NCBI RefSeq assembly: GCF_000003815.2
Contig: NC_049980.1
Coordinates: forward strand, 19,614,348 to 19,678,347
Origin: Branchiostoma floridae
Lineage: Eukaryota > Chordata > Leptocardii > Amphioxiformes > Branchiostomatidae
Direction: 5' to 3'
Length of the DNA: 64,000 nt
Part shown: positions 18,006-62,100 of the stretch, piece after piece
Position numbering within the stretch: position 1 is the first letter of the stretch
How the letters are laid out: the number at the start of each line of letters is the position of its first letter
The notes under the pieces: generated by a model
What the model was told of the DNA's origin: nothing
Database searches by the model: none
Seen by the model: the letters and a program-made list of their open reading frames with translations, nothing else
Made by a program: the position numbers and the translations under genes

Positions 18006-21000
18006 TTACCCACTTAACATCTGTCAAGTACAAGTTTAAAGAGGTGAGCTAGCATTAACTTTAATATTAGACGGGACTTGTACAAAAGCAATGCGCATTA
18101 GTTTTCGTGACAGCACTTCAATTTGGTTTTTTTAGTAAATGAATAGGCTACGCTGGAACATGTATAAGATGTATGATGATGATGATAGTACAAGCGATAC
18201 GTTTTAGTTTCCAGGAGTACTTTTTTTCTAATTTGCAGTAGTGTAGAGCATGGCGCCAACTTTTTCCCTGTAACCCAAACAACACAAAAATGAGGTCTTG
18301 CTCATTGCATGCAATCATTGCAATGTGATTTGATTGTGGTCGTGACCTTCGCTGTCTTAATTTCGAATATTTCAGTGCCCCAAAAAAATTCCGATAACCC
18401 CAACCCAAGAGGAATGTTTGGGCTAGTCTTTCAGAAATAATGTTTTCACCATAAACTTCTCCCTGTAGACCACAACTTCCCACACCCTTTCTCCAAAACA
18501 TTCTCCCTTCGCTCGTATAGTTTATGTAAGCCAATATAAACATTCTCCCGGAAAGGAACACTTCACACTGGTAGCTAAAAAACAGCACTGAAATCTGTGT
18601 ATGGATGGATGTTTTTACATTTATCATCAAATGTACTCGTATGTCAACTGTGTCCAACCAAATGACCATGTTTTGGCTCGGCGATAACCTGTTAAGTTAC
18701 TGTACGATGTATAATTAATTACACCAGCATAATGCATACAGGTTTTAGACGTAATGGGGATACCTCCTGTTAACAGGACTACTTTCGATGAGAGTAATTT
18801 CTCGCAAGCTGATTTGAGTAGCAAAAAAATGGAGTGTTTTTGCGCGGTAATGCATCCTCAGGTCTGGCAGCCAAACTAGCGGGGGGGGGGGGGACAGGAC
18901 AGCGAGTCCAGGAGCCCCGGTGGTAATCGTATGGTACCCAGGCTAGTAAAACTGGACTAGCATGCTGAATATTTTACCAGCTCGGAACTCGACTTCCTAT
19001 CACTTCCACAAGTCTGACCTTTTCGGCGACACCATCTTTTCCACTCACTTCCTCCTGCCACTCGACTGACAGTGTATACAAATAACAACGAACGCACACA
19101 AACACAACATCCAGACACATCGAAAATCAGCCTCCCAAGAGGCAACAAACAAATACAAATCAAGAAAAATGAGAGTGGTTAAGTATTAGTACTACGGAAG
19201 TGAATTACCTGCGGGTCTAGCCCAACTGCCCAAGGCTCTTCCGGCGTTTATAATAATGTTTATTGCAAAATCATGCCCGAGGGCTAATTGCATACACAAT
19301 CTCAAGAACTAAAAGAGGTAAGTACATAAAAACTAGTGTCTAATCAACTATTATTATTATTATTATTGAAGGATGTATACCGGATAAGCAATTAGCATGC
19401 GTGTGTGCTAGTGCTGAACGTACTTCCTCCAAAATATCCAATTGGATTATATCATAGAGGCTTGTGTTTATAGAAAAATTCTAATGTCTAATGCCGGCGA
19501 CACTGTCATTGCACACGGTTCGTGAACACCTTGACCGAGAGTTGTAAGATATACGATGTAAGTTGTAAGTTATAAGGGAAAGGTAGAGGTCACTATCGGG
19601 GCACTGCGGGGGAGTCCGTGTGGTATCTTGTCTATCTGACTTGACGCAAACCTGATATTCAGTAACCTGACACCATCAGAAGAGATTTAAGACTATTTTA
19701 GTCGTGGAATGCAATAATCAACATCTTGGAAGGGATGCCGGATTTTCTAGGGTATAATTAACCATCCAGTCCATCATTAGAACTGGGGTAAAGATCTACC
19801 CCGCAGCGAGTCGGTCCCGATACAGACGTATAACGAGGCGTGGTGACGTTTGTAAGGGTCATGTGGGGCCTGCAGTTTCATTGATGTTTGGTCTACAGCT
19901 AGCTTGGGCGGTGAGATATAAATAAGAGTTGACTCGGCTGTTTATCTCTGCAATATGATGATACTGAATTGCTTTGTTGTTTGTTTGTAATGCCAATAAG
20001 TAACGCAAGACTCGTTCATTTCTTCCTTCGTGTGATTTTCTGAGTGAAGTCGAATGAATGTGTATGTTAAAGCGGGGTAGATCTGAATATGGGAATAGTG
20101 TATTTTTCATTGCACTTGGACCCAACTATACTTTTTAGTGTCATTTTATTGGATTGCGGGCATGAAAAGTGATTTACTTAAGAGCATTTTAGTCGCGAAT
20201 CCTGCTAATCAAACGTTACCAGAGTGTAACGATCTTTCATCCCCAGTAGTGATGGACCCGTACATAGTCTAGACAAACACGAGCGACCCCGTACAGGGTT
20301 GACGTTGACAAGTGCAGGGCGAGAGATGACGCGCGGTTATGGGATGTTGTCCAGCCTCCACCAGCCCTGCAGAAGGTACAGAACACAATCAATCTTATAA
20401 TGTCGTTTCGAGGAACATGTCAACGAGAGTAACAAAACAGTGCTGATAATGTCCTCAGCACCCCGGAAAAGTCACACATCCTGTAAGCTATAGCTTGTCC
20501 ATGTGCTTTTAACTAAGACGGCAGGATAATGGATACAAATGTACATTCTTCAGACTCCTTTATTCCCATGTTTGGAGCGTGGTCCAGTTTCGCCTAACCC
20601 CTCTAGATCCTCTTGGTCAGACAGATTTAGATAGATGTTGAACTGTTGAAGTGGTATTTGTGTTTTACTATGAAAATATAAGCGGTTTATTTTGAAAGGT
20701 TCTGAAAAATCCAGCAATCAACTTTGGTCGACGACGCTGTAGTTATACTAATAGATGAATCTGGAAGGAAAAGGTTGACCTCTGAAAATAAGTTGAATTG
20801 TCTCACTGGTAACACTTACAGCTTCTGTAGGTCTTATAGCCTAACATGGTCTTCTATATATAAATGAGATAGTTGTAGTTTATCAGTAGGGTATAGCTTT
20901 ATTAGTACTCTTCCAGCGGAGGGTCACGGAAGAGACAGTAATACTAGTACCTCACTCTGATTTGTATGGTACCCATTTCTGTCGGTTTCTACTTGAAGAA

Positions 21001-27648: not shown

Positions 27649-28475
27649 ATGTCTCACACACAGTATTACACGCGGGAACTACAGCACACCGACCGCTCAC
27701 GCTTTGTCGTCAGAGGCAGAAATGCGAGCATTACGTCCTCCACGTACAGCAGTGGATACAGCGGGCCGGCGGCGCCCACCACCCGGCGCAGCAGCAGCGC
27801 CAACCCCACCACCAGGAAAATGTCGTACCGAAGCCGCAGTCAGTCATCTGACAGACTGACTACACGCCGAAACACGTACGACTTCGAACCTTACTCCTCT
27901 GCCCGTCTTCTTTCCGAATCTAGGTCCGGAGGAGGGGTGTCCAGAAAGCTTCGCTACCGGCAGCAGATGACCGAGTCGAACCTGACGTCTGCCAGCAACA
28001 GAATGTCCCGCTCCATGACATCACTGACGCCCCCCGACCAGGTGGTGTCCGCTCGGGTGTACTACCAGCCCATGTACCCTAAGCGGACACGAACGCTGTC
28101 CAGCCAGTCGCCGGGACGGTACGACTCCACCACGACTCGCACCTACAGCAGCTACGCGTCTTCGCGACACAGCCTGACGGGCAGCGCGCCCGGGTCCCGC
28201 CGCAGCAGCATCGACTCCCAGCACTCCTACGACGAGCTGATGAGTCCCAGTCCCGTCTTCACCCGCGCCATGTCCACTACCACTGAGATTGTGAAGGAGA
28301 TCAGCAGGCTTCAGGAGACCAAGAAACAACTAGAGACGGACATCCTGACCCTGGAGACCGCCAAGAACACGGGGTCTGGGTCCACTACTGTCATCAAGAC
28401 GCTTCAGGAGGAGACAGAGACCCTGACGAAACGGAACACTGAGCTAGAGAACGACATCAAGGACTTCAAGATGAG
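27649..28475 (+). CDS. IF-like gene 2, exon 1 (head and start of coil 1)
   Basis: GC-rich exon, donor gtaagt, phase 2 out. Begins MSHTQYYTREL; the head is rich in RRSSS, TTRRN and YSS. The last 65 residues are heptad-patterned (ISRLQETKKQLETDILTLE and LTKRNTELENDIKDFKM), a diverged coil 1A/1B. Confidence 0.87.
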
Positions 28476-31400
28476 GTAAGTGGTCTTTCTAAGAAATCTT
28501 TTTCCTTTTGTAAATTATATCTCTGAAGGACACATGATGTATCATAACATTGATATTGCATTTATAGAATTTTGTTGATATTACATGGGTACATTATCTG
28601 CATATCTATGTCTTAAGACAGACCAGTATATTATACTGTACTTAACTCGGTTGGGCAAAACTGTATAATAAAGGTCTTCATTCATTATACCATATCATGG
28701 GTGGTCAAAAACGCACCTACTTTGTCGTAAACACCTTCACTCTGAGGACAACAAAAAGACTGATGTGACATTCTTAGAAAATAATTTCCACACTTTATGC
28801 TGTCGAAGGACACTCGAGTCTTATCACACTTATTATACGTACGGAATATTAATTTGTTAGTCACTAACAAATTAATATTCCGTACGTATGGGTTTGTTTG
28901 ATCTGACGTAGCGCCTTAAAGTTGTCCATATTTGCTGAAGGACACTCGTGATCTTTTTATCTCGTCCTTTCTTACATTCATTCTTTGCGTGACCTTCTAA
29001 CGTATCCGCCATTTTGTCATCTTGTCGTAGTGACCTTTGTTATTGTGCGCTATAGTAGGAACATTTGTGGACTGCGACAGTTTATAACAATGCGCAACCC
29101 GTGATGGTCAGTATGACAGACCTCCGTGTATAGCCCAACACGCCCGCAGTGCTCAGTCTAGACGACAACATAAACTTGATCTCACAGAGAAACTTGTAGA
29201 TACTACAGAACATATCTCATGTTTACTGACCCAAAAAACGGATGAACCGACCCCATGTTTTATTCATACGCCCTTTCTCTTCTCTAAATCATTTATTTGT
29301 AGTGGTTTCTATAATTTTCTTTAGTCCAGGTCGACATTTCCTTTGTCCTTCTAGCCAAGTGTTTTTGTTTCCTAGACTGCCAATGCAGGTATTATTATTA
29401 ATAGGAATAGATGAGAGTAAAACAAAAGGAGAAGCGACCTTTATAAACACCCGGTATTCCCTCAGGCGATGGACGATGAACTGATTATGACAACATCGCT
29501 GTATTCTTGCTGTATTTTTCTTTGCACTTTTCAGCGAATATTGATATTGTTTTTTTTATCGCGATATTTGTTTATCATTATGATATCTTTGGTGTCTGGT
29601 AAAACAATAATCAGGTTGATAGGTGACACTTTTTCGGCTTCCTGAATTTTTCGGATTGAAACGTGACAAGATTGAAATGCTGTGTGTGCATTTTTTGGTT
29701 TCGCTATATCTACAACGTAACCTTATCCCTTCTGACGATAAGATAAACCACAGATTCATCCTAGTGACTTTTATATCTGGTATAAGGCACTTTCGAAAAA
29801 CTAACGCCTTTTTCGGATCGGCGAGCAAGCATTTAGCAGCACCCACACAGTATGACGAGAACTAGTATGATAACAGAGTCAGAGACGCATGGACCGGATC
29901 CTTGTGTGACCTACATTTCTAGATAAATCGCTGAGTGCCTTCCTGGCATTTTGCACCGCTATAGTTAGTGTAGAACGAATTAGAGACCCCGAGACTCCAA
30001 ACAAACCTTTTGATGCTTTCAACCACCTGCCTGACCTTACACAGGTTAGCGAGGTTTGCATACACAATCAACATTTTGTGGGTGTGTATCCCTTTTTTTC
30101 ATGACCTAGTCCAGGCCCCTTTGAGAGGATTACAAGCTAAGTTAGAGAGTCAGTTTGTTTGAAAAGCCTCTCACACACCGCTGAACAATCCTGGCATATT
30201 TGTGATAACAGGACGAGGTTCCTTGCGGTTACCATTGTCCCACCCGTATCGGTGCATTTGTCAATGAGAACATGCAGGGCGCGCACGACCCCCTTTCCGC
30301 GGTGGGGAAACCAAACTTGGATTCGAAACCAAACTTGGATTCGTATGACCTATAACTTGACAACCTGAATTCACGGGGTTAAGGTATGATTTGAAAGACA
30401 AACAAAATACACAAAACGCACAAATGCACGTCTTTATTGACGAAATTCGTTTGAATAACTAATGAATGTTTTGGTCGCTCAACAGTCGCCAGACTCGCCA
30501 CCTCAATGGAATTGTGGACAAATCGCTATCAAATCTATTTACTTCCACCTCCTCTATATTTCGTAAACCAAATCTATAAACCTCTTACCCTGTTAGAAGG
30601 TTTGATTTATGTCTATCGTCTTGCCGGAAGAGTTTCACCGTCCATACACTTAGTAAACTATCATTAGAAATTCAACTAGACGTTCAACTAGCATTAGAAA
30701 TTCACGTAAACAGCTGAATTATTAATAAATAACTCTTCTAGCCTTTGCATAAATGATTATCATTGTGAGTATTTGGGTCAAATCTTTGAGTCACATGTCT
30801 TACCCAAAATCAACTTGAAAGCAATGGTCATCGCAATGATAGGTAGTCGTTTTATTATAGACCGCAGAGATGCTAAAAAAACAATCCACATTGTAGAAAC
30901 AGGGAAGCAAGGGGGGTCGAACAAGGTGAGTGACCTCATCATTTCTCACATTCCTGAGTAATTGCATCCCATCAATCACACCCGAAACATAACCTATCAG
31001 CAGCCTCCGTAACTAACAGCAGGCTTCTCGGCTTGGTCTCGGGTCCATGTGTATATATAAACCAGTTCCTATCAAACAGTCGGGCATGGCAGCCAATAGG
31101 CTATCCATTCTAGGCTCTGCCAGAGTCTATAACAGTTTAAAACTTGGAACAATCAGAATTGATATAAAATCAGAAAAATACACATAACAAGTCACTTAAA
31201 AATCGTAATAGAATTGTCCAGAATACGTAATATCTGTTCTGCTACAATACCATAGAAAGTCGTTAGGAGGCCCATCGGTGACTTTCGTTTACCCACAAGC
31301 CAAATATGATAAAGATCCATTTTTAACTTATGTTATGCTGTCCACAAAGACTCAATGAAACAAACAAACAGACACACAAACAAACGGCACGCAAAAACAT

Positions 31401-34400
31401 AACCTTAGCGAGTGTGGTATTGAGTAAAGAAATCCAAGATGCCTGCTAACCCAATAGGCCGACTGTGTGTATGTACGGTTGATATTAGATGGAAAGGTAG
31501 TTGACTGCCAAGTTGCCCCCGGGTTCTTGATCCCAATTGGCCCATAGCGCGTCTGGAATCCCGATATGCCACAACAAGATTTCCTAGAAGTAAGCAAGGA
31601 GAAGCAAGAATTTTCCGTCTAACATCACGTACATAATCGTATACAAGGGCCTCGAAGTCAATTCTTTTATGGCATTGCCTGTTTTCTCTTGGATAATTGT
31701 CTAGAAGCCAAGCCGATGTGAATTTTGACTAATTCCTGTCTATCAGAACAGTTACGTTTGTTGCTAGAATCGATACAAAATACTATATAAGTCATCTTGA
31801 AACAGGAATGCAGGTATTAACTCGACTGAGAAGATGTTCTCCATACACACCATTCAGGTTGCCCTTAAATGTCAATTTGACACGTTTCCTTCTCCAACAT
31901 AGCAAACCGTTCCCTGCAATTACCACTTATTTCACACCGTTGGAGGGCGAGTAATTAGGTTAAATGTACTTAATTGATCATCCGTCTGCACTGAAGAGGG
32001 CAATGTTCTGCAATAATTGACTTCTTTGCTCCGGCGTAATCTCATAAATTGTATTATCAACGCTGAAATAATGACAATAATCGCCGCTACATCTAGCTCC
32101 GCATATGCATTCCAGCAAACAGAAATAGTTTTAGTTGAAAATCTATTGTAACAATCAATTCCACAGAGTCTCAATCTTTTATACTAGAACCAAGATAATA
32201 AAACACTGTTATCCTTCTAGAAAATAACATCAGTAGATTGGAGAAACAAGACCTGAATCCGACCGATAGAATGGGTGGTGATCGCACCAGTACGTGCAGA
32301 ATTAAAGAAGAAAAATTCCAGGTTTAGCCATCCGTCATGGCGGACAATGCTTGCGTCATTGTCACGTGAGTGCAAACGCCTATTACGAAAGTGTATACAA
32401 CAATATTAGATGATTTAGTAGCCAAGAAGGAATAATATATGTAAAAATTGTCGAGAGTATAGTACATCGCGATATGACTACCACGTTTTTAGGTTCTGGG
32501 ATTTCCTACCGATGTCGACTCCAAGCAAATCCTGCATGGCAATGTGACCGGAAAGGTCTTCCAGCGCAGCTGTGTGCCAGTTCTGAATGCGCGACATTTT
32601 CTCTCAAATTATAACAGAGCGTGCCTGGAAGTGACCTTGAAAGGACCTAAGTAGTTGCAAAGGTCAACTTAGCACAACCTCAGAAATATCCAGCAGAGTT
32701 TATCAATATTAAAGGTTGCAGGGGAGGTGATCTTGACCTTGACTTTGTGGTTAGCGTTCCTGCATGTGTGGCAGGTCATGATGTCGCCACCCTGCTGTCT
32801 GAAAAGTGCAGAGGGGGACCTCTCCCACAGATGTACCACATATTCGGTTCTTCTGCAGCTGTCAACGTTAGTCCGATGGGGTGTAGGGGTGTAGCTGGGT
32901 CATTGACCTAGATTTGTACAGTTTTCCATTCCCGCACCACCATAACACCGCCATCACTGCATTCGATAGTAAAGTTGGAATCGTCATACATTCCGAATTG
33001 AGATTTTCCATGTATGATGCGTGTCTGCACAATTTATTTATCCCAGAGAATTCATCCTATGAGATACGACTAGACCCTAGAACTGTGTCTCCTTCAAACA
33101 CTAGCTAATGACTGTTAAGTGTTACACAGACGTGACGCAACTGCCAATGTCCCTCCAACCGAAAGCCAGAAGCTCTTCCAATCTGTATCCAGGTAACGGG
33201 AAGACAGACTAGTACGTTTCCCGTAGGGAGATACGTCGTTAGGTAGATGCTCGATGACACGCCACCAATTGGTTATTAGTAGTTTAAAGTTAGACCGTAC
33301 AAAAATGACGGAACTCATGATGTCTGCGTGCTAGTTTCATCCGGTCAATCTAGCTATTGCTGGCCTTTCTTTTATTAACAAATACCGTCGGGTTTATGAC
33401 TGCTTCATTCTTTCTTGCTATATCGATATTCCCCACACGCGCGGTGCTGTCACAACCACTATGATCAGTAGAGTAAAAGACCTAATATCGTCTCTCCGAG
33501 GCTCGACCTCCGCTCGACTTGCCATTGTCTGCGAAATGTTAACAAGTCTCCCGTCCAAATCGATTTGCCGCTTGTCGTTCATGTGCCAAGTTCATCTTGA
33601 CTGGGAGAAAAGAAAGCTGACAAGCTAATGTCACGTGGGTCAGTCTTTTAGTCTAAGTGGCTGTCTGCTTCCAAAATTTGCCCTTCGTTATTAAGACAGT
33701 TACTCTTGCAGCTATAGCAAACTTAACAGTGAAAAATCTTTCCAAGGGCAAAGGTGCTGATAACGTCTATCAATTAGCATACAAGATGTACCGTTACTCC
33801 TTTATGCTTCGTGATTTCGCGATTGGTGTTTGCATGTGACGTCACAACCGCCATGTTGGTTGTTTACAGTATCTGGTAACTTTCAGGTTAATCATCCAAC
33901 ATGGCGGGCAGTACTTACGTCATAGCCACGTAGATGCAAACACCTTATTACAGCAGGCATTTTCATTTATGCGATCAAAGTTTCTTGACGATGTGCACCG
34001 CGCTGTGAAAGTGCTCCCACGGGCGGAATTATTTTTTTACAATTCCTCACAGCAAGTGTCTGTCATTTCCCACATTGACTGATCAAAATAAAGAACGTGT
34101 GACCATGGTAGTCGGACCACGAGACCCAGGCACTACAAACAATTCCGTGTTCGTTGTGCTGTAGACAGTCCTGTGACTGTCGCAGGCCTGGCCTTTGATA
34201 GTAAACCAAGATGACATGTACCCCCTCTCCCATTCTAAAGAAATGCACGGTTAAAAACTGTCATTATGCATTCTCCGTTCGCATCTCTAATGTTACGTCC
34301 CACCAATTTTGGGGCGTATGGCACAGTATTTCATGTATGACGTCCCAGCTCGCATAGTACAAGGCAAGGACGTTGGTATAAGTACAAAGTCAGCCATAGC

Positions 34401-37400
34401 TGAGATCTTCACCCGTATGTTTTACCATGGTGAAAGTATTAAGGCAACAGACTTTGTTGCATTCATATTTCAACCCACCCACCAGCCATCTCGACGTAAG
34501 TGCAAACTCGGTAATCCTGAAGGCACCTATCGTGGGTGGGTTATTTATGTCGATTAAAATTGTCCATTAGAATTGATGAGAAGAAATACACACCACTCAC
34601 TCCTGCTCCCACAAAGGACCTTTTAAAATTGGTTCACCGATGATGGACAATTGTGGAGAAAGATTACGCACTCGGGCTGTTACGCGGCACCGATGCTTGA
34701 AATAATATTGCCGTATGATGAATATGAAGTGTTATGTTCGTATTTCTGCCGCATTGCGCTCTTCCCTCAGGTGACCTGACGTCTTGGCATACCGGATTAT
34801 TTCGCAGTTATGCACGCTGACGTTATTTCCTCTTTCGGTGATAGTTAGCCAAAATAATCACATAAAGATGATAGTAAATTCATCGTTACTGCAAGCAAAC
34901 CCATGTGTATTTTGCGGTTATCATTTGCAAAATTCACACCGACACCCACGGAATATAACGTTACTGCCTAACAGATGCAGACAGATCGATTGTAGCTAGC
35001 TGAAGCCCCGAAAGCGCGACCCCAATCCGGGCACACCTGATGTTCTCTAACACATCATATTTGGTATGTCGGCGCACGTAGTGTCTGGGGATCCAATATC
35101 ATGACCTACAGACTGACGAAAGCTTCGACTTGAATGCCAATCCCGAAGTTTAGTGTTTTCCCTTTATGCAGCAGCATTTCCTAAGTGAGCAGTTCTCTGA
35201 AAGTTCAATATCCAGGCATCGGTCATACATAAATCTTGAAACGAATTCAGATAAAGGCAATACCGTATACATGATGTATTCTCCTTTCACTGGTCTGCTG
35301 GAAGAGGGGGTCGATAGCGCACCCTTGGGGAACACAGGAGTGTTGGACCTCATCAGATAGCGGTCACGTTTAACGGCTTATACTTGTAGGCTAGATGACA
35401 TGCGTATCGCTCGGGAATTTTCTGATAACAAGGTTGGCATACAAATGATAATAGACCTAATATTAGACCTACTTGGCCGACTTTGATCGTACTGCAGCAA
35501 TTACAATACATTTCACGAGGAAACTTGCGATAGGCATAGATATGATGAATGCGGGCATGACTAGAACATGACTTGGGCACAATTCATTGCATACGTTTGA
35601 AAGTTTATTTTAAGTGTTGGTTAAATTCATCATGTAAGGTTTTCCAACACACCTGAAACAATGGGACCTTTTGTCCAAAATTTTCGACTGAATAGCACAA
35701 ATAAGGAATCGGCAATTCAACTCTCCCACGTTATCACAAGTTGCAGAAATTTATGGCGTCCTCCGTCTTTCTTTAGTTATGGGTGCAACTCCACATAATT
35801 GTTGTAAAGCATGAAGATGGACCTCGTCAAATGAATAACTGGTTCCACATAACATTGTAATAAGCCAATTTGTCTGCTTCCTTCCCTAGGTTCGAGGAAG
35901 AGATGACCTGGAGGAAGAAACTTGAAGATGAAGTCGGCAGTCTAAGGAAGGTAAGAAGTCAGCGATCAGATTGGGAGGGGTCTGTGAGAGCATGGGGCGC
36001 TTACCACGTCCCTTTGCCTTTGGCACCACTAGTGTATCCTCGTCAGCATTGAAAATACTCGTACTTAATGAGCTAACGTATGAGTCTGTGTGCATCAAAA
36101 GTATGTATAAGTAATTAGTAATCATACAACAACATAAAATACTTACAATATTATTCTTAATGATGCACAGCCTTCCGCTGGACCTTAAAGAACCTGCTTT
36201 AATACAATGGTTTCTTACACTGAGCCTCTATATACAACATGACATGTATAACTCACAACATCGGATTCAATGTCAGAATCAAAATGTGTCTGATAATAAT
36301 GTACGCATGTAGGTCTAACACCTAACCTATGTTATGTATATATTGCTATTCTTAAAAATTGATTCATGTCACAATTGCAACCCTCATAATAAAGATATAT
36401 TATCCAGACCTTTATCTTCCTAATGTCACCAACTAACAGCAATTTTTACATCAACGAAAACCACAACTAACAAACACACTTCAAGTACTATAAGCAAACG
36501 CCATTTGGTCAAGGTCTGATGGTTTTCACCACGGGAGTTACTCACATAAACTCAGGACGGGTTGGCCTGGGAAATGTCACCATAGTTGCTGTGGGGAGCA
36601 GCATCGCTCTGCTTTCACTCCGTGGTGTTCTTTTTAATCGGTGAATAACGCACCTCTTGAGTTTTCCAGTCACTATCGCTTGTCCCTTCGCCTGTTGTAC
36701 CTGTAGGTCACGGTACTTAATATAATTTCTTGGTGTAATGCACTGGTAGGATACCACAATAGTCTTGATTAGATACTTTGCCTTTCATCGCTGCACTGCG
36801 CTCTGGAACCGCTAGGAACGAGAGAGACTAATGTTCCAATCGGTGGCGGACTCGAGCGCCGGTGGCCTCGGGGGCAGGGCGCTGCCCGAACAGCTGGAAA
36901 AGTTGCGAGGACACTACGAGGATTTAATTCGCAGGAACCGGGAAGACCTGGAAAAACACTACAAGGCAAAGGTGAGGGTAGAATAAATGCTGGACGGGTG
37001 AAGGTTCACGCACCCGCCATGTTGGACCACTGGTGACACAACAGAAACTTCCTGCACCGTTTTGTGTGTCACACAGATACTCTCACTGAACCTAGCTGAC
37101 TTTTTCCTCACTACCCTCACAGCACAGTGTAGGCATTATAGATAAGAACAAAGAAAGTACATCCAGCATTCTGACCTTTAAACGCACCCCTTTGTCTCCC
37201 CCGTATAAGTTATATATCCAGTGTTGCGTCTGTTCAACAGTTGCAGTCATTCCTCAGTTGTTACACTCATTGTGGTGACGGACACGCACTCGCTACTCGC
37301 CGGTCGTTTTGACGTAAGGAAACAGGGAGTCGTATATACTATAAATGTTTGCCTTTGAAACAACAAAGAAGTGGAAAGACCGATGTAAAACATACAACAA

Positions 37401-40400
37401 GAACGCAAACGTTCAATTTATGAAAATGATAACCTGATAATATATGTTCCTAGTCTTGTACTACTTGTCGATAAACTGTCGATGAAAATGAATTTATCAT
37501 ATTTATGTCAAAAGGGTGAGATTTCCTGAAAATTGGCACCGCTGACGATACAAACAGTTGGCCGGCCGCCTTGCGTTGATCTTACGCCAGAAACCAATTT
37601 ATGTCTTCTTCTTAGATAAACACCACAGCTATGAAATGTCACAGGGCCTTGCAGGCTTGTTGTCACTGGTTTCCTAATGGGGCCATATGTCTGAAGTCTG
37701 TTTACCACAGCTTAGGTACGCCCCCTTATTTCCTCCCCACCCGTGTTAAGTCAACGCCTTGTTGTTTTACTGCTTCTGAAGGTTGACAGAACGTTTCCAG
37801 CCTTGTTAGCTTTAGCCTACTACCAGTAATCGCTTTACATACAGGATAACTCTCTATAGACCAGAGAGCGTGTGACTGTGACCTTGTCTAGTCACTAGGC
37901 GCCGTGTTCGTCAGCCTCCGATCAACGATCCTTACAATAGAATTTGTTAAAACCTCAACGTTTTACACCGTCAAATGTACGAGAAACAACACTCATATGA
38001 TCCAAACTCCGTATTCATAGTAAGTTCGCAAGATGAAGGAAGTATGGTAGAAAGCAGGTAGACCTGGGTAGAAAGAATCTGTGTTTGCGCCGCCGGCAGT
38101 ACGTTTATGACGGTTATCTAATCCAAGATTTTCCGCTACGGACGTGGACAATTATAGGTTTACGATAGAACATTTATGGCTTTTATCAGGAGGGGTGTGT
38201 GCAAATACCGTTGCCTTGTGACCGAAAAGGTTGTCGTAATTAAGCTCGGTTTTGTTGTACTCCTAATTCGAGCCTTGCTGACAGGATAAATAATCGTACT
38301 CATACGAAGAATGCCACCAAGTCGCGCGCCCAATCAATATCGTCTACCTCTCTCTAGATAAGTGTACAGTATGAGTCAACAGTATGCAAAATTATCGCCA
38401 GGAATCACGACTCGCTGAACACCGTTCTGGGACCCAACCTAGCTAGCTCCTCCTTGTTTGGTCATCAGCACTGTTGACTTACGATAGTCCATGTAATCTT
38501 CAGGTATCAGACATACGGGGAACGCCTCCCCCTTCAACATCTGCTAGGAGATTGAAGCCACCATCTTCCACTGCAAAACCAATTTGCAAAATACCAGTTG
38601 TTTGTGTGCACTAAATATACCTAGGAGGTATTTCTCCTGGCTAAATCAAGTCGACATCTTTCAACAAGTCGCACATGTTTTCTCTAAGGAGAGTTTTACT
38701 TTGCCTGGTGAAAGAAGTTGCACGCGTGGCTGCTAGATAGTGTCAAGATAACAGCTCGTTTAAAATAGCCATATTCCCCACGGTCATGGGTAGTACAAAA
38801 AACCTGTATATAATTAAAAACAATTAACATATCTTAGAACAATCTGTGCAAAGTCATGAAGCTGATATCTGCAGTATAGTAAGAGCCAGGTGCATTCTTG
38901 GGACAGTTGTGGACTTGGGGTTCAAATTAATTGTAATGGTTGTTGTGGATGGTAAACTCTGTCAACCCTAGCTGAATATCACACGGCGAATGTGACTGGC
39001 TCTCGAACAGTAACGTCACCAGTTCATATCGGGTTTCATTGGATAAATCCGCGGGTAATTCAGGCAGCCTTGCGGTGAATGCTTCCGTCTGACTGGCTGT
39101 ATATATAGTAGATGACTGATAGGCGATGAAAAGGGCCGAAGGGAAGTCTGGAATGTAATTCCCAGCGACATCTGAGTGTGTGGGTGAAGTGTACATGTAG
39201 CCTGTGATGTTGGCGTAAGTTCAGAGGGGAATCGCGGGAGCGCCCAACAAACACGAAACCTAACATCTACACCAGCTTCATATTACACCTTAAACTGTTT
39301 AAACACTTAGTGTAGTGACCAAAAAGGAATTCAACTTGATCTTTCTTCTCTAATCAAGTAGTAACCATTATCAGATGACATTAAATATTAATGTGTAATC
39401 TTAAACAAGTTGAAAGTTTCCATTTTAAGCATTAACAATGTTATTTGGATGCAACATGCATGTATAGAAGATAGTCTGCCCCCATCTTCGAACAGATCGA
39501 TCTTGTAACATGTCTCCTTTCTTTCAAACATCATTTCCTTTTCCTTTACATGTACTATTGACAGTTTGTGTTAAGTTAACTTAACACTGATCACAATGAC
39601 AACATTAATGGCATGTAGTCACCGCTGATTGCGACTTGGTGGTATAATTATATTTATCATAACATTCTCATTTAGAAGATATCGCTGCAAATATGCCCTC
39701 AGAATAATGTGTAGCCAATACTAGTATCCGTAAAGTAGACTTCCATTGATGAAAGAATGACAATTTTTACAGCTTCTGTCACATCTACAAAGAGCACACT
39801 TTCACTCCTATAAGACTCGAGTGAGACAGCAACGATTTGTAGATACATGATTAAGCAGCTTTATTTTAGGCATCTCACTAAGTTTGTATGTCTTTTTTTT
39901 TGCCACTTCTTGAGACAAGATGAGTTGATATTTAGAAGAAACCGCCAAAAGGGTTTTGCATTGACGTGGCTATGACGTCAGTAGTGTCCGCCCTGCTGTA
40001 TGGTTAAAAACAAATCCCTAATGTTCTCGTGTGTTTGAAATGTCTGACAGATAACGGCCCTACAAGGCCAGACCATGGCGCCGTCGGAGTTTGTCTCCCA
40101 GATGGAGACCATGCAGACAGAGGAGAGCATGCGCAGTGGCAGTGGAGGACTGGAGGATGCGGAGAGAAGACAGTTCCAGGAGGAGATAGAAGAGCTGCGG
40201 ACGGAGTTACGGAACTTCCGGAACCAGGTGTCACAGATGCAGGAAGGGTGGGTCCGAACCTTGGTGCATTATTAAAGAATGAACAAACCATGCAAATATC
40301 AATTGGTCTGTGGACAAAATATTGAATACTACATTGTAAATACTGTATGCATGTATAATTCCAATTGCCATACTGTGGCATAATAACGTATATTTTAGGC

Positions 40401-43400
40401 CTCGATGGTTCCATGTCAAGGTCGCTTCCTTGTTCTTCGAGAAGCCCTTGCATACCGGAAATATGACGTGAAAACAAAGACAAAGTATGTAAATATTATA
40501 CATGTCTAAAGAAAATAATCAACCCAACTATACCGTTTCTAAAGATTAGCTCAGTATTTTACCGAGTGGGCGCCTTGAGTATGCTGGAAATGTCCGTGCC
40601 CAGCTGAATATGGAAACGGCCATTGCAACTGTTACCAAATGTACCACTGGTGTGATTTTGTAATCGTGAACGTTTATTGATATTTTTCTATCTTACCATG
40701 GTATCAATTCATCCAAATACCGATCTCCCATAGGCGACAGACACACCACTGGCACTGACACATATACACCGATATAGCACTGTCTGCACATATTAAACTG
40801 TGAAACGTCTACACTGTGTGCTGATGACACACTAGCACTATTTCTAGTGACAACTTTGGCGAAGAATGTTTTATCTCTTGAAAGAGATAAAATTTATCTC
40901 CAGATGGAAGAAATGTCGTTTAATTGTATATATATAGTACCGAGACAGACTTTAAGCCCTTAAAGCTGTCCATCTGTAAGACTGTAGACGTGATTAAGAT
41001 AAGGAAGAGCTACGTTAATCCAAACAAGCCCAAGGACTGCACTACCGTATGGGTTGCCAACGATTGTCAAACAAGCTTAACGGATATCTGGTAAACGTGT
41101 GGAATAATATGTTTGGGTTTTCTTGGATTTTATCCATCTTTTCATTCCATGATCAACATTGTGGACCTGGACATATGACAAAACAGGACATCATAATTAG
41201 ACCTTTAAAAAAATTGGACTAAAATTCATACCAAGAGAGCTACACAATGCCCACCTCTAAAAGTTAAAACCGATTTCCGATAAATTCTTTAATACAAGCA
41301 TAGAAGTGTCGGTGTTGGTGAAAAATATTAAGTTGTTGACTGGTACTTTACAATCTGCTTAATTTGTCTCCTTGCAGAAAAGCCACACCGAAGGTTAACG
41401 GACATGGGGATTCAGACTTCCCGGGCGTCCCCTCTGCCTGTTTCATCCAGAACGGGGAACACAGGCACACGTCACACCTCAAGGTAAACCTGGGGAATGG
41501 CAGAAACAACGTGTACGTCACAGGTGAGAGGTCACACTTCGCACACAGTTGCCCCAAGATGCTACGGTTCAACATGTAGGTCGCAAGAAGGGACCGTGCA
41601 CAACAAGACAAGTTGTTATAAGAGATTTTATTATATGATAGGTCGTATTCCTCATGGTGATACTCCAAGTGAATACAATTGTTCCACCATGCCACAGCTC
41701 CTTCTATCGACCACAGTAAAAACTACATGTAACGTTACGCTTGCTTCCGCAGGTCTTTCCCTCAACCCAGCAGCAGTTGCGATGCAGCCAACTGGAAAGC
41801 CACAAGGGTTCGTGTCGCTGTACCCGATCTCTTGGTACTTCGACAAGGACCTCAGCACCATCCACAGTGCACAGAATGTGGTGACAGAAACGAAAACTAC
41901 GCAGAAAACTGTGACACAACAGAAAACCACTCAGCAGATGATGACACAGAAGGGAGTGGCCAAGGATGACCCAAAGTACGGATCTGTACACATGTCCGTC
42001 AAGGAGGAAGAGATAGCTAAGGTTCTGAAAGGTACAGGGATGTTACTATTTGTGCATGACCAATCATTGGTACTACAACAGTCTGTGAAAAGTGCATACT
42101 AGTAGTGGTTCGCTTTAAAAAAAAATGTTGGTTTCAACTGTATGTCCGTGTGACACTGTAGGTGAATTAGCTGAATTAGATGTTAACTGACGCAAAATGG
42201 AATTCCCTCCAGGTTATGGTGCTGCAGTGCCGGCTCCTGGTGATAGGGGCGCTGATATCAGTGCCTCTGTAGGCAGGGCGCTCGTTGGTAAAACTCGGTG
42301 GCGCTTAAAAGGCCCCCAAATCCTTGTATCCAGAGGGATATTTCATTCAAAGCATTTGGGTCGAAAAAGATAACAGCCAGCATTGTCGGCATTGAAACTA
42401 TATTTCCGTAATTCTGGAATCTATCCTCCAAGTTCAGAATGGAATATCCCATCGGTGTGGGTGGTGTTCACATATACCCATTTCCACATTTCATCGGGCC
42501 ATGGTTTAAAAAAGCACAACTAACAACAGCATTAGACATCGGGGCTGAAGGTGTCATCTAACTGAATTAGGTTTTCGTGGTCTGGGACAAGGAAACTTGA
42601 TTAATGATACTAGTAGCTATTAACCAAGTTGTCTTACCGTGGTATTTCGTGGTTAACATACACACGACATTTGTCCTGGACGGAACCATACCAAAAAAGA
42701 ATAAAAACCGTCTGGAAAAGTTGCACAATATTCACAGGACCTCTACTATGCTTCAATCAAATGCCACTAATCCGTACAACATGACTGAACCTTCTGTCGA
42801 CCAGGTTCAGTTAGCAGTCAATACAAAACTCAAAAGAGACATAAAAACGACACAACACAGACGCATTGGACACCCGCTGTAAGAAGATATAACTTACAAT
42901 TCATAGCACAACAGTGGCATGAAGTCCTCAAAGTAACCAAAGACAACAAATCCCAGATAACAGAATGACTTCTCGGTAATACATTTCGTTCTGTTCTACG
43001 TCGTATTTAAAAAGGCTCACCCCGTGAGTGAGGGAACAGCTATCCGATTATTTCAACTGAAGTTTAAAAAGCAAGATCACACCAATAGGGAACAAAAGAA
43101 GACACAAAATGTCGTTTGTTCGTAGAAGCTGTAACTCTATGGATAGAAAAAGTATAAGTTATGAGATATCATTTTTTTTTCTGACAGGTCGGTGGTTCCG
43201 ATTGGCCCACCACGCCAGTCATGGGTTAGTGATAGAGGCAGAGGACACTCCACAGTCAGGCAAGCAGGCGGTGGCGAATAAAAAGCAAATACCAACAAAG
43301 TAAGTACCGGTCAGGTTTAAAATGTATTTTCCAACACAAATGAGAGATGGGACTTAGCCAAATTCTCGACTGAACAGCGCCGGTCTTTGTCAATGAATGA

Positions 43401-44323
43401 GGAATTCACCGCTTTTGTTGAGTCACCTGGTACAGATAGAGCGCATAACCCGGTGTCAGTCTGTGGATCAAACGTTGCAGTTTATGGCGTCCCCGTCTAC
43501 AACTCTATTTATCAAAGGACGATTGTATGAGGACTTAATTCTTCCGGAAATAGGTGGTTATGCCCAAAAGAAACATTACACAAATTTTACTGGACGCTTG
43601 GTTGGTATCTGTCTGTGGAATACTTGACTGGCAAAACAATTGTTTTGTACGTAAAGGCATGGATTTTATACTGCTGTTTTACAACTTGTTTCTCACAGTG
43701 ACACACAACTCTGGAGCTATGACAAAGGAAGTTTCCGTAACAAGAAGTACCAGAAGTGCGCGCTGCAGGTCTTGGACTACTTCGCGCCCTCTCCCGTGGA
43801 ACTGGCCCCTTATACAGGCGACAGGAACCAGAAATGGGTGGTATGTCTTATTCAAAGTTTTATAAGTTTTACGTTAAGTTTTATCAAACACAGAAACGAT
43901 ATCCAGCGAATTATCTGTCGTACCCATCGGCGTTTTTTCCTGAAATAACCTTATGCACACTGATCTTCGGGATGTATGACGTCAGAAGTGGATCAAAGGT
44001 GTCCAGAAGTCGGTAGTACGCTACAAGTGTAGTTAAAGAAAAAAAGTTTTCTGTGACTTAAAACCCAATGGTAAATAGGATTTGGGCAAAATAATATTTG
44101 AAATAATGTAAAACACTTTTGTCTGGTCCGTCAGGTGACCGTCCTTTTTTAATTTAGATATTGTCTTCCGAATTCCCGACAGATCCATGCTAACGGCGTC
44201 ATTACCAGTGCGGACACGGACTTCGCCTTGGACATGGATGGGCACAACGTCATCATCAGCCCAAAGGAGGCAGACGACTCCGCCACCCGCCAATCGTGGG
44301 GAATCGAAGTCGTCCAGAAATAG
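27649..44323 (+). CDS. Intermediate-filament-like protein 2 with C-terminal ricin-B-type beta-trefoil domain
   Basis: Ten exons join in frame with consensus splice sites: 27649-28475, 35890-35950, 36816-36971, 40051-40247, 41378-41523, 41753-42031, 42213-42287, 43188-43299, 43699-43840 and 44183-44323 (stop TAG 44321-44323), 711 residues. Order: R/S/T/Y-rich IF-type head (1 to about 210); coiled coil (about 215-414) including a 61 bp exon 2 (FEEEMTWRKKLEDEVGSLRK) and an HYEDLIRRNREDLEKHYKAK segment matching type III IFs; a linker (415-580) with a Gln/Thr/Lys-rich stretch; a beta-trefoil (about 581-711) with QLW, QKW and QSW, one per repeat. Coil 2B and TYRKLLEGE are absent. The head and intron phases mark IF ancestry; the three QxW motifs spaced over about 130 residues mark a complete ricin-type trefoil, a fold usually binding galactose-type sugars. 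The domain is a lectin fold only; no toxin chain is present. Start choice: the frame is open upstream to 27400, but MSHTQYY resembles IF heads and an acceptor (ttttcag) lies at 27437-27443. A sugar-binding cytoplasmic filament is inference. Confidence 0.83.
28835..28889. repeat. Perfect palindrome, two 27 bp arms around one central base
   Basis: The left arm 28835-28861 begins ATACGTACGGAATATTAATT. The right arm 28863-28889 is its exact reverse complement, with C at 28862 between them. Similar AAGGACACTCG words at about 28807 and 28941 flank it, so the whole may be the core of a larger foldback element. Confidence 0.92.
30309..30342. repeat. Perfect two-copy 17 bp tandem repeat
   Basis: aaccaaacttggattcg occurs twice without a spacer. 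Confidence 0.9.
32335..32380. mobile_element. Single arm of the GGTGTTTGCA hairpin family
   Basis: CATGGCGGACAATGCTTGCG and onward to TCACGTGAGTGCAAACGCC align with the right arm of the element at 33825-33944 with few changes. Confidence 0.6.
33825..33944. mobile_element. Hairpin element with TGACGTCA and GCCATGTTGG motifs
   Basis: The left end GGTGTTTGCATGTGACGTCA is inverted at the right end as ACGTAGATGCAAACACC. Internal CCGCCATGTTGG and CCAACATGGCGGG are also inverted copies. Single arms of the same family occur at about 32335-32380 and 39951-40003. Confidence 0.72.
35890..35950 (+). CDS. IF-like gene 2, exon 2 (61 bp, coil 1B)
   Basis: Acceptor ttccctag, donor gtaaga, exactly 61 bp. 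FEEEMTWRKKLEDEVGSLRK aligns with the (K/R)YEEEINKRTAAENEFVxLKK region of IF rods. Confidence 0.88.
36816..36971 (+). CDS. IF-like gene 2, exon 3 (end of coil 1B, coil 2A)
   Basis: Acceptor aaccgctag, donor gtgagg, 156 bp in phase 0. It starts ERERLMFQSVADSSAGG (Gly/Ser linker-like) and ends HYEDLIRRNREDLEKHYKAK. Confidence 0.85.
36972..40050 (+). other. Intron 3 of IF-like gene 2
   Basis: 3.1 kb, GT-AG. No exon equivalent to the 96 bp or 126 bp IF exons was found on reading through. Confidence 0.7.
39951..40003. mobile_element. Single arm of the GGTGTTTGCA hairpin family, just upstream of IF-like gene 2 exon 4
   Basis: GGGTTTTGCATTGACGTGGC then TATGACGTCAGTAGTGTCCG matches the reverse complement of the right arm of the 33825-33944 element. 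It lies within 50 bp of the acceptor at 40050. Confidence 0.6.
40051..40247 (+). CDS. IF-like gene 2, exon 4 (last rod exon)
   Basis: Acceptor tctgacag, donor gtgggt, 197 bp. An Ala/Pro/Met/Gly-rich start (MAPSEFVSQMETMQ), then charged coil (RRQFQEEIEELRTELRNFRN). No TYRKLLEGE follows. Confidence 0.8.
41378..41523 (+). CDS. IF-like gene 2, exon 5 (linker)
   Basis: Acceptor ccttgcag. Donor gtgaga at 41524 keeps phase with exon 6; the earlier gtaaac at 41483 would not. Encodes KATPKVNGHGDSDFPG and onwards; no known domain. Confidence 0.72.
41753..42031 (+). CDS. IF-like gene 2, exon 6 (Gln/Thr-rich linker)
   Basis: Acceptor cttccgcag, donor gtacag. Encodes GLSLNPAAVAMQPTGKPQGF, a hydrophobic-aromatic patch (LYPISWYF), then a low-complexity ETKTTQKTVTQQKTTQQMM stretch. 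Confidence 0.8.
42213..42287 (+). CDS. IF-like gene 2, exon 7 (Gly/Ala-rich hinge)
   Basis: Acceptor ttccctccag, donor gtaaaa, 75 bp, phase 1 in and out. Encodes YGAAVPAPGDRGADISASVG, a flexible hinge before the trefoil. Confidence 0.7.
42288..43187 (+). other. Intron 7 of IF-like gene 2
   Basis: 900 bp, no exon seen. A 92-codon frame at 42604-42882 has no recognisable domain and is not in phase with flanking splice sites. Confidence 0.6.
43188..44323 (+). CDS. IF-like gene 2, exons 8-10: ricin-B-type beta-trefoil domain
   Basis: Exons 43188-43299, 43699-43840 and 44183-44323. Three homologous segments each end in QxW: QLW at 43706-43714, QKW at 43829-43837, QSW at 44291-44299. The first begins GRWFRLAHHASHGLVIEAED; the third contains GVITSADTDFALDMDG, a typical trefoil strand-loop pattern. 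About 131 residues, the normal size of one complete trefoil. The protein ends 12 residues after the last QxW motif begins (GIEVVQK), so nothing follows the domain. Confidence 0.85.
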
Positions 44324-50133: not shown

Positions 50134-53100
50134 CTAGGGTACAAACAGAAGTCAGACTGGGAAATTGTACAAATGTCATCAGCCACTGGTTATGCAGATC
50201 AAATTTATGGGATACATGTATCATAAAAAAATCCATTACAAAGCTATTTTCCCCACAAGACACCAAGTTTAGAGTTACTGCAATGGACATTCAGACTAGA
50301 AATACCAGATGTTTCTGCAAACTCAAATTAGTCAGAAAGGAAATGAGCTGTGAAACATTTCTGTACTGCATGTAAATATACATTGTATTAAAGGCTTTTT
50401 TTAAGAAACTGCTTCACACACAGAACATCAGATACTAAAATGAATATCAACAGAACTGATTACAGATCAAGTGCCACAGCAACACAAGCATGTACCACAC
50501 ATGTACAGACAACCACCAGTATGGCTAAACATGACACCATCTGTATAAGGATCTTACTGTGTATGTTCTCTTGGGCACCAGCCTCTTCTCAAAGTGGTCA
50601 AATGCATAGGGTTTGGTACAGATGGGGTACCTACAGAGAAATGAATGATATGGTCACTTTTAACTACATGTATAAGAACGTTTTGTCTTAGTTAAGGTTT
50701 AATATAGTTACATCATTGAACTTCTTACAAATAATAAGGAAATGTTATTTTGAACGTACTTGGTTTTTGTGGTCTTGTAGAAAAGATGGGCTGTCCTGTC
50801 CAGTCTATAGTCACACACATACACGTCCTGCTCCTTTACAGTCTTGGGGCGGCCCTTACAAAACGTCTTCAAGTCCATGACACAGCAAAGGCCAACCACA
50901 GCCTCCAGTGGGATGATCTCGTACAGGGGCACTCTGAACAGCTGAGAGGGAGAGACAAGTGCTGTTACTCCCCCTGGTGAAACACTTTTGCACTGCAGCA
51001 CCATGTCAATTTCCTGGCATCAATAACTGCCTCTGATACATTATACTTCAGTAGGCTCAACACTTGCACACAATTCCATGTTTGGAAGAACCTCAGGCAT
51101 TATACAGCTGTACATTACATAACTTGTAAGTAAAAGTAGAGCTCCACCCTGGTGTGTATGTCTAACAAAAATGTGAGCCATATCACAGTCAAATCACACA
51201 ATTACTTATACACTGGTCATAGGTACACCTGCTGGTATAAGTGCACTCACCTCATTGGGGAAGAACTTTCTGGAAGGGGCATGGTGGGTTTCATGAGGTC
51301 TGAAGTAGTGGTGGCCAAATGCAAACCTCTCACTTCTGAGGAAATAAAAAACTCCAACCATTAATGCAAAGTCAGGGACACTTTTAAGTTAACTATTGTA
51401 ACAATAACTGAATTGAATTAATGATCTGACCAAAGTCCTGAAACCAAAACAATGTAAATATCAAAATTATGTGACATAAATCCACAGTAACGAATCTGAT
51501 CACCTAGTCCATCACATTCCCTATTTCCAACAAAAATAACATCTTAGAAAGGACTTGGTCACATTTGCCATAAATTCGTATGATTAATCTATGGCAGAAA
51601 CTCAAGGGCATTCTTGGGATTTACACCACAAGATTTAACTGTCAAGTGCCAGATGTGGCTTGAAGTCGACTGTCAGTTTTGTAATAATCAGTTTTGTAAT
51701 TTAGCTGAAAAAATTGTACGACGAACGTGATCATGTCTCTAGGAGACTGCACGAGGGAAGTCTTACTTTTCATTCTTCCACAGCTTTTCCACCCGGAAGA
51801 CGTCCAGCTTGTCGGGGCTGATGTTGGAGAGCAGGCGGTACGACGTGCGGACTGACTTCCCATCAACACTGCGCCGCTGGGACTGGTCACGCATCAGGTA
51901 CACACAGTCCCCTGGAAACAGGAACTCAAGTCAATAATACTGCAGGAAGTAGGAGTCTACATTTTAAGCAACTTCAAAAGTCTTTCAATTGAAATGGGTA
52001 CAGGATTTATCCCTAATTTCCACATGACAATCCACACAGATGATTTGAGTTTGTTTCTGAAGAAGTCGCAAGTCTTTAGAGTACAGAAAACATGTTAGTG
52101 ACAAAGTCTAATATATCCCTGCATTCATGCCATCATAGTCCTTGACATTCTTTCTGCACTATCCTGTTAACGGTCATCCGAATGAGACCTACCTTGTCTG
52201 ACCAACAGGTCATCCCTGAGCAGAGTCAGGTAGTACGTGCAGCCACGGTTAGCGTACGGAGGCTGTGGCACCATGGGAACTTCCCTGTCCACCTGCCGAG
52301 GGTCACACTCCTCACACAGGTAGTGCTCCACGTCATCTGTGGTCCGCATACAGTCACAGTGCTGCCACACCTGGGGTGAATGTATGTTTTTGTACATTAA
52401 GGGTGTGATTTTATCAGCAAAATCAACTAAGTCTTAACAGTTTTATTTATTGGTAAAATGTTCAGCACCAAGGACAGGCATACATGGCTGTGTGGACAGT
52501 TTTCAGCCCCAAGGACAGGCATGCATGGGTGTGTGTGGATGGTGTTCAGCACCAAGGACAGGTATGTTTGGCTGTGCGTGGATGGTGTTCAGCACCAAGG
52601 ACAGGTATGTTTGGCTGTGTGGATGGTGTTCAGCACCAAGGACAGGTATGTCTGGCTGTGTGTTGATGGTGTTCAGCACCAAGGACAGGTATGTTTGGCT
52701 GTGAGGATGGTGTTCAGCACCAAGGACAGGCATGCATGGCTGTGTGTGGATGGTGTTCAGCACCAAGGACAGGTATGTTTGGCTGTGTGGATGATGTTTA
52801 GCACCAAGGACAGGTATGTTTGGCTTTGTGGATGGTGTTCAAACTCAAATTTGTCATAGTGCTCTTTAAAAGTCATAGTGCTCAGTTTTCCATCCTGAGT
52901 AACCCCACCAGCCATTAACCGAATGACTCACCATGCATTTCTCACACTGGATCATGAGCCCCTCATCCTTGAAGATGCCACAGATGCAGCGGATGATGTC
53001 ATCGTCAGACTCGTCCTTCTCCGGGTCCCTCACAGTCTCCTCCACCATCTCTGTGGTGTCAGGCTCCCCGGATACCTCACCAAGTATCTCCTGTACAGCA

Positions 53101-59100: not shown

Positions 59101-62100
59101 AATTTAGAAATAGAGGAATTATATCGATATGTGTTGAGCTTACGTCTGTAAATTACAATTTTATGATTTCTTGACTGAGTGTAAGCTGACTGAGATCACA
59201 AGAAAGGGGATTTTTGTAACTATAATGGATTACATACGCTGAAAAAAAAACATAAGTTGGCTACTACAATACAAAATGTGACACTGTCAGAGTAATATTC
59301 TGAAGGTAAACTGGGGCTTTATGACCACATACAAAATGACTAATATGCAACCCCTTACACCATACAAAAGCAGGACTTTTGTATGGTGGATCTACAGAAT
59401 TAAATCCATGTTAAAGCACCACAGATTGCTTTGTGAATACTGATAACTCTTTGCCTTACCCTGTGGGATAGGCGTTTTACTCCTGACTCCGTAGCCTCTG
59501 TCCTTGGTGACGATCCTCTCCAGTCCCGGGTCCCATTCATGCCTCTGTATCCTCTGATTGGCACACTGGTCCGCATATGGGCAGGTGTTGGGGGAACATT
59601 CCATAAAACTCATCCTAACAAGGAGGGAAGGAACGTTAGAAACTATGCAAGTTGGTATGACAAAGAGCATGACATTCTCCAATGAGCATAACATACACGT
59701 GCTTGTATACATGTATATGGGAGTTTTTCTTTGCATGCATTTCTGCGTTTTTGCTAAAATTACTAATTTCCTTATTTTTTCCTACATTTAGTAACTATGC
59801 AACCACTTCTGAACAAATAAACTGGACCCAATGACCCAAAGCACCTGGTTCAATCATACCAAACAACAAACAGATGTTCAGTGAGGAAATATTGTAACTA
59901 ACGGTACTTCTTTATTTACACGTATTTGTAGAAGACAAGCCAGCTATATAAAAGTATAGTAATATCCATGAAAATTAAGTAAAACTCCAGATAATAAATT
60001 AGAACCAGTCAATATTGCCCTTAAGAGGTTGACAGACTGTCATCAAAACCAGTATTGTAAATCGTTGCTATATTCCACTCATCTATTGTGCATGTACATC
60101 ATCTACATATATCTCAATGCAGTCCTTCCTCACCTGTTGAGACAGTCTTCTTGGCAGGCCTTGTCAGCCTGTGCAGGCCGGACACACGTACAGACAACCG
60201 GTTCACAACCAGACAGCGGCTTCACATCAACAAAGATGTCTGAATAGAGATAATCAATGATACAGTTAACATACAACTGATAGATAATCTTGCTTAGACT
60301 ACAAATTCACAGGCATGTTCTTCAAGTAATTGTGAAAAGGAAAAGGAAATGGTGTAAGCTTCCAGAATTTGCCCAGGGACTTCAAAGCAGCTATATACTG
60401 TACACATGTGGCTTGTTAGCATGAGATTTGGTACAGAGGCATATATCCATGTACAGCAGGGTATGCCACATGTTGTTATGCATAACTAATGGTAGCTATC
60501 CCACTCACACAGGGAAGGAGTCGGAAGGACCCCTACTCCATTTGATAACTGTGGTGGATTATATAACATGCCCGAGGTGTGGCTCTCCTCAAACATGGGA
60601 ACCAAGGGCCACAAATCAGGAGAGTCAGGGGAAACTTGGGACAGCTTAATTACAGGCAAAACACTCTACCCATTTTGACACATAATGATCTACAGGACTA
60701 TCTACAGGACTAGGCAAGACCTTTCAAATTTAACTGACAAGGCAACAACCTGACAAACAAAGGTCACACATCTTTACAATTTGGGGTGAAACTTCATGCT
60801 CAAAAATCACATGACTTTCAGATAAATGACTGTAAAAAAATTCAAAGACCATTCTAAAGCTTAGGTACTCTAGTCTTGTAAGTGCATTATCTATCATTTT
60901 TTAAATGGAACATTTATGTCCAAATGTTATCCTCCAATTATATTCCGTGGATTTCTTGAACACTGAAGATGGATTTTCTTCAACAAATTCCTTGAATTGC
61001 CACCGTTCAAGAGTCACAAGGGAACAATATCTCAGATAAATGTGAATTCAAATTTTACATATTCTTAATGTTGGCAGCATAAACTAGAACAGAGAACTCT
61101 CTGTAAAGCCACTTAATATGACAATGACGCTGTTAAAACTGGCAAACTGCTGTGTAGCACATCAAGAAAGATGAAGCCACATACGAGACATGACAGGGGG
61201 GAACGCTTCAAATCCAAACTGCACATTTCTATCGTCCAGGTCTTAACATGGTTTCTCTAAAATATGTGGATGATTTTCCACAGGGCCAGGCTCAAGAACA
61301 GCAAACAATTTAATGTTTCAAAACGATAGATGCTGATATCAAGATTTATGCCTAACTTGTTCCAAGTTACTTATAATTATATGTCACCTTTCATGATTTG
61401 CCTTACACAAAAAATTTCGGCATTGTGAAAACAGTAGCCAATCAAGCTTATGCAATACAAAGATCAATCCAAAAATCCAACATATCGTTGATGTTTTAAC
61501 TACATTGTACAATCTTTACATGACCTATATGCAAGTCTGTTACCAAATGCAGTCAACCTTGTAACACTACTAGAGACTCCATCTGCATAAAGATCACCTG
61601 TTTACAGTGACTACTCTGCCTATGAATCCATTCCATCTCATTTGCTTCCCAGTCACATACAAGTACATCCTTGCTGCACCTCAAAATATCTTAATTTTAC
61701 AAGCTTGCAGTTGACTTGACTTCCAGTCAATAAAAAAAAAAAACTAAAAAAATTACATTCACATGTGTATTATCTGTATTGATCCCTGGTCCAATGCTGA
61801 CTGAGTCACCATCACTAGACACTTTGAAGATGAACCTATTGATAACTGCCTTGGGGCCTTCCACTGCATCTGAATCAGACATGTACAGATACACCTACAT
61901 GTAGATCTGTCAGAACAGTGCCACCTACTGGGCCTCAAAAGTATTTCCTTTTGATCTTGTATAACACTTTTCTCTCTAAAGGAAAAAAAAATAACTGAAA
62001 ACAAAAAACACAGGTACCTGCACCTTCAGAGAAGGTTTTGATCAAAAATCAAAACTTTCAGAAATGAACAAAATAATGACTAATTCCTGTCATTTTCCTT

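Follow-up and report, generated by a model that had tools for sequence, protein, structure and literature searches.

The window analysed here is a 64-kb stretch of Branchiostoma floridae DNA. On its forward strand, at 27649-44323, lies a gene for a protein with a coiled-coil part resembling the rod of intermediate filament (IF) proteins and a C-terminal region that matches the profile of the ricin-B-type trefoil. Ten exons of 827, 61, 156, 197, 146, 279, 75, 112, 142, and 141 nt join in phase to encode 711 residues, with the stop codon at 44323. The ten phase-consistent exons put together in an earlier sequence-only reading are all present, separated by nine GT-AG introns with consistent splice phases, and the junctions on either side of exon 8 (42287/43188 and 43299/43699) are both correct in the reconstructed gene model.

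Exon 1 (27649-28475) encodes the Ser/Arg-rich head (residues 1-208; 22% Ser, 15% Arg+Lys) and the first coiled-coil part, where the helices predicted by AlphaFold suggest a coil-1A-like helix, then a short Gly/Ser linker and then the start of coil 1B. Coil 1B takes up the 61 nt of exon 2 (35890-35950), which is entered in phase 2. A linker and the start of coil 2 (LPEQLEKLRGHYEDLIRRNREDLEKHYKAK) are encoded by exon 3 (36816-36971), and a shortened coil 2 without the rod-end motif by exon 4 (40051-40247). Residues 209-413 as a whole are coiled-coil-like and slightly acidic (20% Asp+Glu, 16% Arg+Lys). The middle region, residues 414-580, is conserved and a Pfam search of it returned no match; exon 5 (41378-41523) contributes a part with no known domain and exon 6 (41753-42031) a part that includes a Thr/Gln-rich stretch. 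Exon 7 (42213-42287) is a symmetrical phase 1-1 cassette of 25 residues that precedes the trefoil. The trefoil itself, residues 581-711, is divided between exon 8 (43188-43299; first repeat), exon 9 (43699-43840; end of the first repeat and the second repeat, with QLW and QKW), and exon 10 (44183-44323; third repeat, with QSW, and the stop codon). An alternative first coding exon, MTRGYGMLSSLHQPCRR, lies at 20326-20375 (+). It is used at the start of two gene models, P0001 and P0002, has a GT donor in the window, and splices to an acceptor inside exon 1, at 27924.

A second IF-like gene lies upstream in tandem, at 7932-14404 (+). In the model built here it has five exons (7932-8704, 12241-12301, 12535-12711, 13345-13470, and 14129-14404) encoding a separate protein of 470 residues with no trefoil. 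Its head contains SPVSPRAL-type tandem repeats (8476-8596). Long tandem arrays are also present at 4729-5975, with periods of about 58 and 222, and at 52459-52841, with periods of about 41 and 84; the long reading frames at these two places are due to the tandem repetition.

Exon pattern and length of the rod

The rod was compared with that of vimentin, the letters of which were verified against PDB 8rve. When the 21 residues of exon 2 were slid along vimentin without gaps, the best position was 188, with a score of 36 and the next at 24. For the 30 residues that precede the exon 3/4 junction the best position was vimentin 265-294, with a score of 50 and the next at 23. Such scores are rare between the two proteins. 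A score of 36 is reached by 8 of 53,095 pairs of 21-residue windows, five of them on the coil-2 diagonal, two on the exon-2 diagonal and one elsewhere, and a score of 50 by 2 of 48,928 pairs of 30 residues, both on the coil-2 diagonal. The vimentin exon lengths are assumed here to be 61, 96, 162, and 126 nt, in which case position 188 is the start of exon 2 and position 294 the end of exon 4; a search of the literature by exon lengths found nothing. On that assumption the rod has the exon pattern of an IF gene, with a 61-nt exon and a coil-2 junction at the places equivalent to those in vimentin.

The rod is short. It has approximately 206 residues, compared with 307 in vimentin as used here, and is not the rod of about 310 residues with a conserved start and an end resembling TYRKLLEGEE. 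In tblastn searches with the vimentin rod, exon 1 was matched weakly (E 3.3) by the part running from the end of 1A through L1 into the start of 1B, and neither the rod-start motif nor vimentin exon 3 nor the rod end had a significant counterpart in the exons or introns. The possibility that the large introns conceal further rod exons was likewise rejected, as tblastn of the window gave no significant match to the vimentin rod there. The IF-like head and rod described in the sequence-only reading can be kept as regards the exon pattern and the positions that match vimentin; a full IF rod they are not.

This shortness bears on whether the protein could be a genuine IF subunit that forms filaments or co-assembles into them, its short rod entering lancelet filaments and decorating them with trefoils. 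The Ser/Arg-rich head, the order of predicted helices and breaks, which resembles 1A-L1-1B-L12-2, and the IF exon pattern are what such a subunit would have. The shorter rod, about 206 against 307 residues in vimentin, with vimentin exon 3 and the rod end lacking significant counterparts, makes this rather unlikely, and because of these two missing parts it is doubtful that the protein builds filaments alone.

The trefoil and its sugar-contact positions

The trefoil is supported by its profile. Pfam PF00652 scores 33.9 bits with the whole protein and 38.6 bits with residues 581-711 alone, above the cut-off of 29, and none of ten controls (nine shuffles and the reversed domain) matched. The QxW motifs are at residues 621, 662, and 702, thus 41 and 40 apart, as expected of three repeats, and three or more QxW arose in 17 of 20,000 shuffles of the domain. 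A PF00652 score above the cut-off together with three QxW repeats places the domain among the R-type trefoils. A profile of three lancelet trefoils matched PDB chains of R-type lectins at E-values of 1e-5 and weaker, and comparison with the profile of CBM13 domains was weak, with a probability of only 45%. No second trefoil was found in the window, where only three exons match the trefoil profile, all of this gene.

Structure prediction was less clear. Two AlphaFold models have a mean pLDDT of 36.1 and 38.2 and are confident only for the rod helices, with a block pLDDT of approximately 70 to 83 in the first half of the rod. In the trefoil part this value is roughly 20 to 40, with strands predicted at low confidence. 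The alignment for the second model contained eight of the nine lancelet forms described below and 16 added trefoil-domain rows, from 15 of 80 Streptomyces loci and one viral contig. These rows were used minus their first repeat because MAFFT scattered it. For the model including the added rows, the three best Foldseek matches in the PDB are trefoils, with low TM-scores and E-values of 0.25 or worse, and there were no PDB matches at E <= 0.001. Assignment of residues 581-711 to the ricin-B-type trefoils is thus supported by profile, and the predicted structures gave no confirmation of the fold. Of the complete trefoil claimed from the sequence alone, the family and the three repeats stand, while the models have low confidence in that region.

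The earlier suggestion of a glycan-binding role, as a lectin, cytosolic or secreted, that is multimerised by the coil, is consistent with the profile assignment to a lectin family and with the best solved relatives being sugar-binding domains. The sugar contacts themselves were read by aligning the lancelet trefoils to CBM13 domains, the first repeat by eye, against a canonical site of Asp, an aromatic residue, and Asn-Gln, the definition and positions of which are assumed here. The second repeat retains Asn-Gln but has neither the Asp nor the aromatic residue. In the third, Asp is retained while the aromatic residue and Asn are missing, and the first retains only the Gln. A complete canonical site was therefore found in none of the three repeats in the lancelet versions aligned, where most contact positions are substituted. 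Secretion is argued against as well, since the first 40 residues contain no signal-peptide-like hydrophobic stretch (best 11-residue hydropathy mean 0.28). A lectin is on this evidence unlikely and, because no repeat has all of the canonical sugar contacts, glycan binding would not be the default reading of this trefoil. It is very improbable, if conceivable, that in a branch of the chordate IF family the acquired tail recognises sugar marks inside the cell, O-GlcNAc on cytoskeletal proteins for example, by a trefoil site of non-canonical type; were this true, a filament-associated protein would sense the glycosylation state of the network.

Descent of the rod and lancelet gene models

For the rod alone, no Pfam family matches better than Filament (PF00038), whose score of 33.5 bits (28.3 bits with the whole protein) is below the curated cut-off of 40. 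None of eight heptad-preserving shuffles tested, of ten made, matched the Filament family. The heptad periodicity observed in four rod segments was reached by 25, 6, 130, and 27 of 5,000 shuffles, respectively. The score alone is unable to settle the origin of the rod, since the nine lancelet forms are also matched by generic coiled-coil families in NCBIfam, SMC-related and Rad50 (best E-values 9.7e-10, 4.6e-8, and 1e-6), at E-values equal to or stronger than those of Filament and far under their own cut-offs.

Further evidence comes from the upstream tandem gene, for which Filament is again the best Pfam family, at 33.3 bits (cut-off 40). The second exon is 61 nt and the fourth 126 nt. Its exon 2 fits vimentin best at 188 without gaps (score 33, next 22) and its coil-2 stretch at 265 (score 46, next 20), although a score of 33, that of exon 2, occurs in 15 of 37,884 window pairs, and four of the eight listed are on an unrelated diagonal. 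The two genes are similar in their tandem position, in the length and phase of exon 2, and in a coil-2 motif. They differ in that the upstream gene has no trefoil, a Ser/Thr-rich tail, and the SPVSPRAL-type repeats in its head. The neighbour supports the derivation of the trefoil gene's rod from an IF gene.

A generic coiled coil without IF descent would explain the low Filament score and the matches to SMC-related and Rad50 models. It would also fit the tblastn search of the window with the vimentin rod, where the coil-2 exon ranks first and is the only match under E 1, but at E 0.37 against a best of 1.1 in the reversed window, and the upstream gene, whose second coil stretch has no heptad periodicity (898 of 5,000 shuffles reach the observed value). 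It does not account for both neighbouring genes having their best ungapped matches at the equivalent places in vimentin, nor for the 61-nt second exon in both and the 126-nt fourth exon upstream, if the vimentin lengths are as assumed, and is quite improbable. From these sequence comparisons the rod looks IF-derived. The protein is not a normal IF protein, given the short rod, the missing usual ends and the Filament score below the cut-off, and is not classed as an IF protein here, as two features that define the family are lacking.

A search with residues 270-711, in which the 7992 candidates sharing most words were scored, identified nine proteins, every one from Branchiostoma, that stand for 39 member sequences from six contigs. 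No relatives outside Branchiostoma were found among these candidates, and further database searches for non-lancelet relatives found none (14 candidates, none of which match; 1242 at E <= 10). The B. floridae form P0002 has no mismatches to the window protein and 52 gap positions, which are exon 3. The gene is also present in B. lanceolatum (P0004 and P0008), in B. belcheri (P0007), and in two hybrid assemblies. The coil and the trefoil occur together in all nine listed forms; each matches both the Filament and the trefoil Pfam families at E <= 0.01 and retains the exon 8/9 and 9/10 junctions. Six of the nine skip exon 3, and five have no exon 7. In the precomputed database list PF00038 is given for P0001 and not for the other eight forms; both domains are already listed for P0001, so the combination has been recorded by machine. 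The models are named as uncharacterised, as Hypp1389, or as 'uro-adherence factor A-like', the last of which has no support from any analysis made here.

As the sequence-only reading held, coil and trefoil are very likely one gene, judging from public gene models of lancelet assemblies, since all nine listed forms join them. A merged-gene artefact, in which annotation fused two neighbouring genes, is scarcely credible and was rejected on the evidence of database gene models, in which nine forms (39 member sequences on six contigs), including the separately named Hypp1389, are joined.

Relative to the window, the trefoil is identical at 117 of 131 residues in B. lanceolatum and 110 of 131 in B. 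belcheri, compared with 63 of 65 for exon 4 in both. Exon 3 is identical at 46 of 52 in B. lanceolatum and 42 of 52 in the B. belcheri hybrid. Residues 414-555 of the middle region (41378-42031) are identical at 133 of 142 in B. lanceolatum and 125 of 138 in B. belcheri, approximately the conservation of the coil. The trefoil is therefore retained yet drifts more than most of the protein, its identity being below that of exon 4 and the middle region and similar to that of exon 3.

A putative scaffold and its relation to known proteins

The gene structure, the domain matches, the conservation across B. floridae, B. lanceolatum, and B. belcheri, and the alternative splicing among gene models are established. 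The explanation favoured here, by a modest degree, is that the gene derives from a cytoplasmic IF gene, is specific to lancelets, and encodes a short-rod coiled-coil scaffold with a trefoil that docks partner proteins. In such a derivative the rod would have been shortened to approximately 206 residues, and the tail would have gained the conserved middle region and the three-exon ricin-B-type trefoil. A cytoplasmic coiled-coil dimer is the simplest reading because there is no secretion signal, the head is IF-like, and the coil segments bear heptads. The protein would stay in the cytoplasm, where the shortened rod may form a parallel dimer displaying two trefoils. Since the sugar sites are degenerate, the trefoils would dock proteins and, less likely, glycans, and the IF-like head and rod would perhaps link the partner to the filament network. 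Skipping of exon 3, the start of coil 2, would tune assembly, and skipping of exon 7, the linker before the trefoil, would tune reach or spacing.

It is mostly through flexible heads and tails that intermediate filaments have varied. Lancelets are at the base of the chordates. A gene with an IF exon layout, a short rod, and an added folded recognition module would indicate that one chordate lineage has converted the family to a scaffold or adaptor role, and the trefoil-free neighbour is a natural comparison for the timing of the tail gain.

The closest known proteins on the IF side are the chordate cytoplasmic IFs, including the Branchiostoma IF multigene family, and the sequence comparison was made with vimentin as the yardstick. 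Like chordate cytoplasmic IFs, the lancelet protein has a Ser/Arg-rich head and its gene a 61-nt coil 1B exon, and the start of coil 2 and its exon junction coincide in position with those of vimentin, if the vimentin exon lengths are as assumed. Unlike them, it has a rod of approximately 206 rather than 307 residues, rod ends that were not found, and a trefoil tail. The likeness to R-type trefoil lectins of PF00652/CBM13, such as the 29-kDa galactose-binding lectin and actinohivin, consists of a profile score above the cut-off and three QxW motifs. The lancelet trefoil differs from these in having no complete sugar-contact set, in its place on an IF-type coil, and in that no secretion signal was seen.

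In the main text of one survey, chordate cytoplasmic IFs consist of the rod with type-specific additions, nematocilins and protostome IFs carry IG domains, and one louse lamin has a PDZ domain (Kollmar 2015, PMC4448529). The words 'trefoil' and 'lectin' do not occur in that main text. Searches of the open-licence literature in PMC found no account of an IF-trefoil protein or of these gene names. The combination of an IF coil and a trefoil was found here only in lancelets, among the candidates scored.

On the reverse strand of the window, at 58626-59781, are exons with AWS and SET domains that resemble an ASH1-type histone methyltransferase gene. In the human genome ASH1L and LMNA are in the same chromosome band, and for this reason the neighbourhood of an ASH1-type gene and an IF gene could be ancient.
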